Below are positions 47,982 to 49,411 of a stretch of DNA of 49,574 nucleotides, piece after piece; the first letter of the stretch is position 1, and each line of letters opens with the position of its first letter. The DNA lies in the NCBI GenBank assembly GCA_017424235.1, contig JAFPAQ010000263.1:1-49574 (forward strand). Reading direction: 5' to 3'. The position numbers and the translations under genes are program-made. The stretch comes from Lachnospiraceae bacterium (GTDB lineage Bacteria > Bacillota > Clostridia > Lachnospirales > Lachnospiraceae). The notes under the pieces are model-generated. The model had not been told where the DNA came from, ran no database searches, and saw only the letters and a list, made by a program, of their open reading frames with translations.

Positions 47982-48218
47982 ATGAAAGAAAAATATTATG
48001 ATGATCCGAAAGAAAATGCAGCTTTTTTAAGGCATGTTGATGTTGTTACAAATATGATTTTAAAGTATGGTCCTGCGCTAAAAAGGAAATGGGCGAGGGA
48101 AGCATTATTTAATACAGTGTGGCTGGATTGTTTCTTCAAGGAGACTGCGGTTAAGAGATATATGGCATATTTTAACTACTATATCTCCTCCGAGGAGTGT
48201 TTCAAATGCTCTGCCTAA
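47982..48218 (+). CDS. Small hypothetical protein of mobile elements
   Basis: A 78-residue protein starting MKEKYYDDPKENAAFLRHVD. It is helical, with no membrane span. The last Cys pair (CFKCSA) is notable. GGAAAGGAA precedes the ATG. It lies between the relaxase gene and an HTH gene with its own promoter. I do not recognise a function. Confidence 0.6.
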   Translation: MKEKYYDDPKENAAFLRHVDVVTNMILKYGPALKRKWAREALFNTVWLDCFFKETAVKRYMAYFNYYISSEECFKCSA

Positions 48219-48319: not shown

Positions 48320-48613
48320 ATGGAAACGATTACGACATTAGAGGAAGCTCTTAAAAGAATTGCGGAACTAGAAAAGGAAAATGCAAAGCTTAAAGAAGAA
48401 GTTGAGTATTACAAAAATAGAAAAGCCAGTGGTCGTCAGAAGCATAATGCCAAGTGGATGGCAATCTATAATGATTTTGTTGTTTGCTATGAAGGTGGCA
48501 TGACGATGGTAGAGATTGCTAAGCGTAACAATATCAGTGAGCGTAGCATTTATAGGTATAAGGCGTATTATGACAAGTTAAGAGAAGTTGCTGATAATGA
48601 TGCAGGTAACTAA
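48320..48613 (+). CDS. Coiled-coil/helix-turn-helix protein (resolvase-HTH-like)
   Basis: A 97-residue protein. Residues 1-36 form a short coiled coil (EEALKRIAELEKENAKLKEE). After a basic patch (RKASGRQKHNAKW), the C-terminal 50 residues form an HTH like the one at the end of serine resolvases (MTMVEIAKRNNISERSIYRYK). AGGTGG 8 bases upstream sets ATG 48320; a GTG at 48308 is in frame. It lies right before the array of 27-bp dyads and is a natural candidate to bind them. Confidence 0.75.
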   Translation: METITTLEEALKRIAELEKENAKLKEEVEYYKNRKASGRQKHNAKWMAIYNDFVVCYEGGMTMVEIAKRNNISERSIYRYKAYYDKLREVADNDAGN

Positions 48614-48644
48614 TTTTATCCCGTCGAATTCGATGAGATAGAAA

Positions 48645-48850
48645 TTTGCGGTGAAAAAATTGCACCACAAAATTTATTCAAGGTGAATTATTTGCACCTT
48701 GAAGATTTGAGGTCGAAATTTTCGACCTCAAGTTGGGAATGAAGCTTGCAAGTGATTTTTCGGAAAAAATTTTTAAAGAAGTCTTTAGTGGTCACATTTT
48801 GTGGGACCAAGAGAAAAGCAAAGTTTGCGGTCAAAAATTTTGACCGCAAG
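48645..48850. repeat. Array of 27-bp dyads with GGTS-N9-SACC core
   Basis: Four units share the layout TTnnnGGT(C/G)-N9-(G/C)ACCnnnAA: 48645-48671, 48677-48703, 48706-48732 and 48824-48850. A looser one (48785-48811) has an 11-base spacer. Arm bases differ between units but change together across the dyad (GAGGTC/GACCTC, AAGGTG/CACCTT, GCGGTC/GACCGC). The array fills most of the gap before the gene at 48872. A separate TCGAATTCGA palindrome lies at 48624-48633. Confidence 0.75.
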
Positions 48851-48871
48851 ATAGATGGAGGATTGGAATTT

Positions 48872-49411
48872 ATGGCAGAAGATGCAAATTCAAGAAATGT
48901 ATCCGTGATTAAGGATGTAAATGGGAATAATATAGTAATGATTAATGACATTATTTTCAAAGGTAGACAGGCGATTAACTGGGAAGATGTAGAGAATTAT
49001 TTGATGCGATATGTTGGCGATTTTTATACGATTGCTGATAATAAGGAGATTGTATTCATAGGTACAGATCTTCCTGATGAGTATACTCACTCTGAATATA
49101 CGAATATTTTAAAAGGAGCAAATGCAAAGGCAAAAGCAAACGCAGCGCAGGGTTTACCTGAGTTGATTGAAATAGCTTCAGGAGTTCGTTATACACCAAA
49201 TACAAAGCCTAAACATAATAAAGATGCTAAACATGGATGGTATAGGTATGAATCAAGGTTTGCATTACCTGTGTTTGGAGACAATGGAGAAGTAGCAAGA
49301 TATAATGTGTTCCACGTTGCGATGATTCTTCGCCATGCAGAAGATGGAAAGAAATATTTGTATGACATTATGAATATAAAAAAAGAAACTAGTAGCCTTT
49401 TCCAGTCCTAA
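48872..49411 (+). CDS. Hypothetical protein with possible nuclease-like C-terminal domain
   Basis: A 179-residue protein starting MAEDANSRNVS. TGGAGG 10 bases upstream sets this start; the longer frame from 48746 runs through the dyad array and is unlikely. The C-terminal 70 residues (HGWYRYESRFALPVFGDNG, YNVFHVAMILRHAEDGKKYL, YDIMNIKKETSS) recall, from memory, domains at the ends of phage and mobile-element polytoxins (barnase/EndoU/RelE-like group). I cannot confirm a catalytic site. It may be a toxin or a remnant of a longer protein. Position after the dyads suggests joint regulation. Confidence 0.55.
   Translation: MAEDANSRNVSVIKDVNGNNIVMINDIIFKGRQAINWEDVENYLMRYVGDFYTIADNKEIVFIGTDLPDEYTHSEYTNILKGANAKAKANAAQGLPELIEIASGVRYTPNTKPKHNKDAKHGWYRYESRFALPVFGDNGEVARYNVFHVAMILRHAEDGKKYLYDIMNIKKETSSLFQS

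Follow-up and report, generated by a model that had tools for sequence, protein, structure and literature searches.

The question raised by this locus is which gene an array of short inverted repeats belongs to, and what kind of molecule reads it. The array occupies positions 48,645 to 48,850 of a 49,574-nucleotide contig from a Lachnospiraceae bacterium (JAFPAQ010000263.1; this whole stretch of 49.6 kb is called the window below), and lies between a small helix-turn-helix (HTH) gene that starts at 48320 and a gene, starting at 48872, for a protein that we call P0002. An earlier note on this DNA had described four units with a GGTS-N9-SACC core plus a looser one, and had considered operators for the HTH protein, iteron-like origin sites or a hairpin RNA partner of a toxin. 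We propose instead, with a probability of about 0.72, that the dyads are DNA operators for ORF6N-type proteins, inherited by the gene that replaced an ORF6N gene. Binding, dimer geometry and repression are what we infer here from the computed sites, leader homology, gene replacement, in-gene palindromes with their excess over shuffles, and residue-base covariation.

The window contains the motif GGTSN9SACC exactly four times (48650-48666, 48682-48698, 48711-48727 and 48829-48845), against an expectation of 0.62 (standard deviation 0.84) for the whole window. All four are confined to 196 base pairs (bp), and only 1 of 100 dinucleotide shuffles gave four matches, counted anywhere in the 49.6 kb. 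The motif count thus confirms the units that had been described, the arms do vary between units while pairing within each, and the covariation claimed for them is real. The dyad cores are 25 bp in length with an 8-9-8 layout, and TTGNRRTS-type half-sites exactly 9 bp apart are present in four units, the fifth having N11. Dyad 1 (48646..48670) carries the half-sites TTGCGGTG/CACCACAA with one mismatched pair (also written TTGCGGTG / TTGTGGTG, N9), and its left half-site is the in-gene half-site of an ORF6N gene of the same genome (locus L173). Dyad 2 (48677..48703; TTCAAGGTG-N9-CACCTTGAA, half-sites TCAAGGTG/CACCTTGA) is present in the L173 leader as well, and TCAAGGTG matches the half-site of the L038 and L040 genes and proteins. 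Perfect 12-bp arms are found in dyad 3 (48707..48731; TTGAGGTC/GACCTCAA) and dyad 5 (48825..48849; TTGCGGTC/GACCGCAA), with TTGAGGTC being the half-site of the L166 protein and TTGCGGTC that of the L070 protein; dyad 5 also sits at the position of the last leader dyad in L038 and L040. The looser unit, GGTC-N11-GACC as read directly from the sequence at about 48786-48812, looks like a decayed ORF6N-type dyad because its alignment partner in the L173 leader is a regular N9 dyad, TTTGCGGTCACcatttGTGACCACAAA. A sixth unit, of a type other than the ORF6N dyads, had been overlooked: a degenerate KilA-N-type palindrome, TTTTATCCCGTCGAATTCGATGAGATAGAA (48614..48643; core CCCGTCGAATTCGATGAG), which is an inverted repeat with 81% complementarity and was compared with the KilA-N in-gene palindrome TTTTAAACCCGTCGAATTCGACGGGTTTAAAA. 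No KilA-N match was found in the assembly of this genome (completeness 91%). Because its half-sites match those of L173, L038/L040, L166 and L070 together with the KilA-N type, the array is best seen as a cluster of candidate sites for several proteins of the domain-swapping Bro network, now located before 48872; passages of PMC10111431 place ORF6N-type proteins in this network.

The array had been tied to both of its neighbouring genes. Among ten HTH-48872 pairs, however, dyads lie between the genes only in the window and are absent from 9/9 others, while N9 dyads of the same kind are found upstream of 16 of 69 ORF6N genes (one filter), and so the tie fails by the earlier note's own criterion of dyads occurring apart from these neighbours. 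ORF6N genes behind the HTH gene also carry such dyads in their leaders, the HTH gene being within 900 bp in 5 of the 16 dyad-led ORF6N genes and missing from that distance in 11. These counts bear on the proposal that the dyads are operators of the adjacent HTH protein, for autoregulation or for control of P0002. The HTH gene does adjoin the array, and an N9 dyad occurs within 400 bp downstream in 19 of 98 HTH copies, but the palindromes behind near-identical HTH proteins are of very unlike types (ORF6N, Bro-N and KilA-N), none of the nine other pairs has dyads, and most dyad-led ORF6N genes do without a nearby HTH gene. In addition, the HTH genes of L007, L036, L115 and L125 have the dyad TTGTGCCA-N9-TGGCACAA about 36-40 bp upstream, which is possibly the HTH protein's own operator and likelier to be so than the window array. 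We therefore consider operators of the HTH protein very unlikely.

The sequence to which the array does correspond is an ORF6N leader. The leader of the ORF6N gene of this genome (contig C240, L173) aligns with the window array, with dyad 2 and the ribosome-binding region included. A segment of about 79 bp is absent from the L173 leader near dyad 3, which lies at its edge. The ribosome-binding region and the first four codons (48860..48883, + strand; ATGGCAGAAGAT) are common to ORF6N genes as judged by alignment with L173, L038 and L040, and the reading frames of 48872 and L173 both open with ATGGCAGAAGAT. Given that the leader aligns with L173 and the first codons are shared, 48872 occupies a former ORF6N position, the ORF6N gene having been replaced after its first codons. 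A dyad-binding protein, one of the possibilities raised earlier, is the best reading, although neither of the neighbours, the HTH protein or 48872, fits as the partner.

That the same leader fronts different genes (P0002 versus ORF6N) raises the possibility that the dyads are recombination or homing sites for swapping Bro-network genes, with the array as the scar of past exchanges. Several dyad types accumulate behind the HTH gene, the ORF6N reading frame of L069 starts right at its palindrome, and Bro proteins resemble homing endonucleases according to passages of PMC10111431. However, the P0002/ORF6N junction is in the start region and outside any dyad, and six aligned sequences show no break at dyads, making recombination sites an unlikely explanation.

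The operator reading gains weight from a second location of these palindromes, inside the genes themselves. In 28 of 30 ORF6N loci from the family genomes, a long palindrome is found within the ORF6N domain (PF10543) at the motif L[RK][SC][QK]xxT[SL], with arms that vary from gene to gene. The best palindrome of the domain scored 11.2 on average across 69 ORF6N genes, compared with 4.8 in synonymous-codon shuffles, and 52 of the genes beat all 100 shuffles. All synonymous shuffles were likewise beaten by 24 of 33 Bro-N genes (PF02498; motif DHFxxVxKMV), E. coli dinD included, and by 28 of 38 KilA-N genes (PF04383; motif FKxVEFDxFK). Control stretches from other genes of the same loci behaved differently, with 1 of 150 beating all 100 shuffles and mean scores of 4.9 versus 4.7. 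This sole exceptional stretch proved to be part of a RhuM-type gene, and in a panel of RhuM genes (PF13310) 16 of 22 had 0 of 60 shuffles as good. The palindromes of ORF6N, Bro-N, KilA-N and RhuM genes lie at different motifs and differ in sequence. For dinD of E. coli K-12, 0 of 200 shuffles were as good. Ten dinD/Bro-N genes from other lineages or phyla, with K-12 among them, divided into four with an exceptional palindrome (E. coli K-12, Klebsiella, Bernardetia and a Flammeovirgaceae bacterium) and six without one (another E. coli, Thiothrix, Streptococcus, Zymomonas, Calothrix and a Bacteroides RhuM gene scanned over its first 420 nucleotides); a similar palindrome stands upstream of the gene in Thiothrix and Bernardetia.

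In principle, template switching at quasi-palindromes could maintain such perfect palindromes through mutation alone, without any function. The great length of some arms (20 bp in L163) and the persistence of symmetry while sequence drifts would agree with this. By contrast, the fixed codon placement in four families, the near-absence from the 150 control stretches, the retention of N9 by leader copies whose centres are often unsymmetric, and the residue covariation described below all speak against it, and we regard a functionless origin as highly improbable.

If ORF6N proteins read these sites, residues of the proteins might be expected to change with the bases. In a set of 68 ORF6N proteins, residues encoded outside the palindrome were compared with single half-site bases. 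At position 2, G goes with Arg in column 126 and A with Lys (51 and 15 of 68, with two exceptions; normalised mutual information, nMI, 0.90); at position 7, C goes with Gln or Glu in column 59, and G or A with Arg (nMI 0.71); column 127 has Tyr with G and Lys or Thr with A at position 4 (nMI 0.68), and column 122 has Lys with C at position 3, against a background in which 99% of column pairs lie below an nMI of 0.63. When independent pairs were counted on a tree built without the tested columns, residue and base changed together in 6.5 of 7 pairs for column 126 (p 0.016) and 8 of 8 for column 59 (p 0.008), with none in the opposite direction, and in 5 of 6 for column 127 (p 0.06) and 3 of 3 for column 122; because the columns were picked by rank, these are post-selection p-values. 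Among the mis-paired controls, those listed (position 4 with column 126, 7 with 127 and 2 with 127) gave the same direction in 0 to 0.3 pairs. Arg-G and Glu-C are familiar protein-DNA contact preferences. In an AlphaFold model of the ORF6N domain (L046, 14 sequences; pLDDT, the predicted local distance difference test score, of 72), columns 55 and 59 (K48 and R52) map to helix 47-60, and columns 122, 126 and 127 (K89, R91 and Y92) map to the loop before strand 95-98, so that in the model the covarying residues are placed as expected of a helix and a wing. Leader and in-gene half-sites of ORF6N loci fit their own partners better than swapped ones (p 0.001, 35 loci; p 0.066 in a stricter set of 14 loci), and the own partner was no better in the small Bro-N and KilA-N sets. 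For the ORF6N protein of this genome (L173), the column residues predict the reading of TTGCGGTG, the half-site in its own gene.

The palindromes might alternatively act as RNA, as hairpins formed by the leader and by the ORF6N mRNA, which a protein reads or which pair with one another. Their arms are self-complementary, palindromic copies could pair in trans, and phage antirepressor-type loci can encode immunity RNAs, as stated in passages of PMC10111431. An excess of G-U over A-C mismatches, as in an RNA stem, was not found in the genes or in the leaders. Mismatches affect 15 of 536 half-site pair cells in ORF6N genes (3 G-T and 5 A-C) and 33 of 1098 cells in 122 ORF6N, Bro-N and KilA-N genes (7 G-T and 4 A-C), the low rate being partly a matter of choice because these 122 genes were selected for good palindromes, and 24 leader dyads have 6 G-T and 5 A-C. 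Half-site position 3 has a C-A mismatch repeatedly, in window dyad 1, L050/L150 and L173, and the centres of leader dyads 1 and 2 are unpaired. Spacing is fixed, being exactly 9 in 20 of the 23 dyads that have an RRTS half-site and lie in ORF6N leaders (some of the 23 being near-identical loci), and bases covary with putative base-contacting residues. Rfam gave no match at gathering score in five related loci, and in the window only two far-below-threshold matches near the array and none on it. With palindrome copies also inside coding sequences, RNA hairpins appear quite unlikely, and the hairpin RNA of the earlier note is not borne out, whereas the fixed spacing around frequently unsymmetric centres suits a symmetric DNA-binding protein.

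The same results leave a type III-like antitoxin unsupported. In type III toxin-antitoxin systems, near-identical direct repeats give rise to a processed RNA antitoxin against toxins such as ToxN, AbiQ, CptN and TenpN. The window resembles them in having repeats upstream of a possible effector gene, but its units are palindromic, their arms differ, and they are part of another gene's leader. Iterons, too, are direct repeats of one sequence, located in an origin and bound by a Rep protein. What recalls them is that the element has a RepA_N gene (45037) and a series of spaced repeats; however, the repeats here are inverted with differing arms, lie about 2.6 kb from the RepA_N gene, and recur in leaders and coding regions of regulator genes. 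We found no evidence for iteron-like origin sites.

In the operator model, the 25-bp site in double-stranded DNA would be composed of two 8-bp half-sites of the TTGNRRTS type exactly 9 bp apart. Its reader would be an ORF6N-domain protein, one of the DNA-interacting Bro-network proteins found in mobile elements, with two-fold symmetry, a helix-turn-helix and a wing. An ORF6N gene normally holds one such site in the codons of its DNA-binding domain, and often a second in its leader, and this combination of external and internal operators suggests autoregulation of ORF6N. Of the two sites, the one within the gene is the more constant, which makes a roadblock or looping mechanism of autoregulation a guess; what matters may instead be that site and gene cannot be separated. 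In the window, a leader with putative sites of four specificities and a decayed KilA-N site now stands in front of P0002. Given this ORF6N leader, P0002 is probably controlled by ORF6N proteins from other parts of the genome, among them that of contig C240, which matches TTGCGGTG. We give even odds to a wider proposal, in which ORF6N, Bro-N/DinD, KilA-N and RhuM genes would carry their own protein's palindrome in DNA-binding codons, with motif and site co-evolving and moving inseparably, recognition residues in helix and wing shifting with the site, and arrays serving as multi-specificity clusters for mutual sensing or silencing of elements; dinD of E. coli K-12 would be a member.

P0002 itself (179 amino acids; 48872..49411, + strand), which holds the place of the ORF6N gene of relatives, has nothing in Pfam at E<=1 and no match in PADLOC. 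Its best NCBIfam value is 0.057, below cut-off, its best PHROG match has an E of 0.015 and its best PDB sequence match an E of 0.092, and an AlphaFold model of it (pLDDT 35) gives no usable information. These results neither support nor contradict the possible RNase-like domain of the earlier note. Among 397 family genomes, 107 encode relatives, many of which are fragmentary or interrupted by stops; in other loci (L016, L018, L025 and L029) different HTH domains precede them or are joined to them. The family may be a modular effector or regulator.

The HTH gene (P0001, a small coiled-coil/HTH protein; 48320..48613, + strand) matches HTH_Tnp_1 above the cut-off with an E of 4.2e-6, and 101 distinct copies were collected. 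Behind them stand ORF6N, Bro-N, KilA-N, PBECR3, CdiA_C-like genes, relatives of 48872 and others. Individual cases include a PBECR3-type nuclease (L085), a CdiA_C-domain protein (L083) and, in L063, a putative Abi-like protein; it is possible that this HTH gene is a general partner of effector genes. In L005 (1481-1948) a C-terminal remnant of P0002 (residues 155-175) lies behind it, and by eye a serine-recombinase-like frame follows the Bro-N, ORF6N or KilA-N gene in L045, L047, L070 and L110. Most of the window is chromosomal by gene content, with ClpC-, RadA-, UvrD- and PBP-like proteins among nine proteins scanned. Its last part holds a RepA_N/DUF6017 protein, a NikA/MobC-like protein and a relaxase, after which come a small orphan gene (47982-48218, a 78-amino-acid open reading frame with no family match), the HTH gene, the array and 48872, near the contig end.

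The lac and gal systems have external plus intragenic operators. The likeness lies in a symmetric site near the gene start and another inside the coding region; the difference is that here, in four families, the intragenic site falls in codons for the DNA-binding domain of the regulator itself. A self-site inside a regulator gene is apparently an undescribed arrangement; a full-text literature search, judged by titles and abstract openings, gave no recognised description of a self-embedded palindrome. The Bro-network protein CapR, which represses by binding a promoter -35 region according to passages of PMC10111431, offers a likeness as a repressor of this network acting on DNA, and differs in that those passages mention no self-embedded palindrome. 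Bro-network genes have ORF6N-type dyads in and before them and adjoin the same HTH gene, whereas the window array precedes P0002, which matches none of their domains. Many phages and mobile elements carry Bro-network domains, the targets of which are mostly unknown, and this arrangement helps in reading what the poorly known ORF6N-type proteins recognise. If the in-gene palindrome is the protein's own site, the specificity of many regulators would be readable from gene sequence, a residue-base code could be fitted and cross-talk between elements predicted, and these genes would offer an unusual example of DNA symmetry shaping the protein motif that the DNA encodes.
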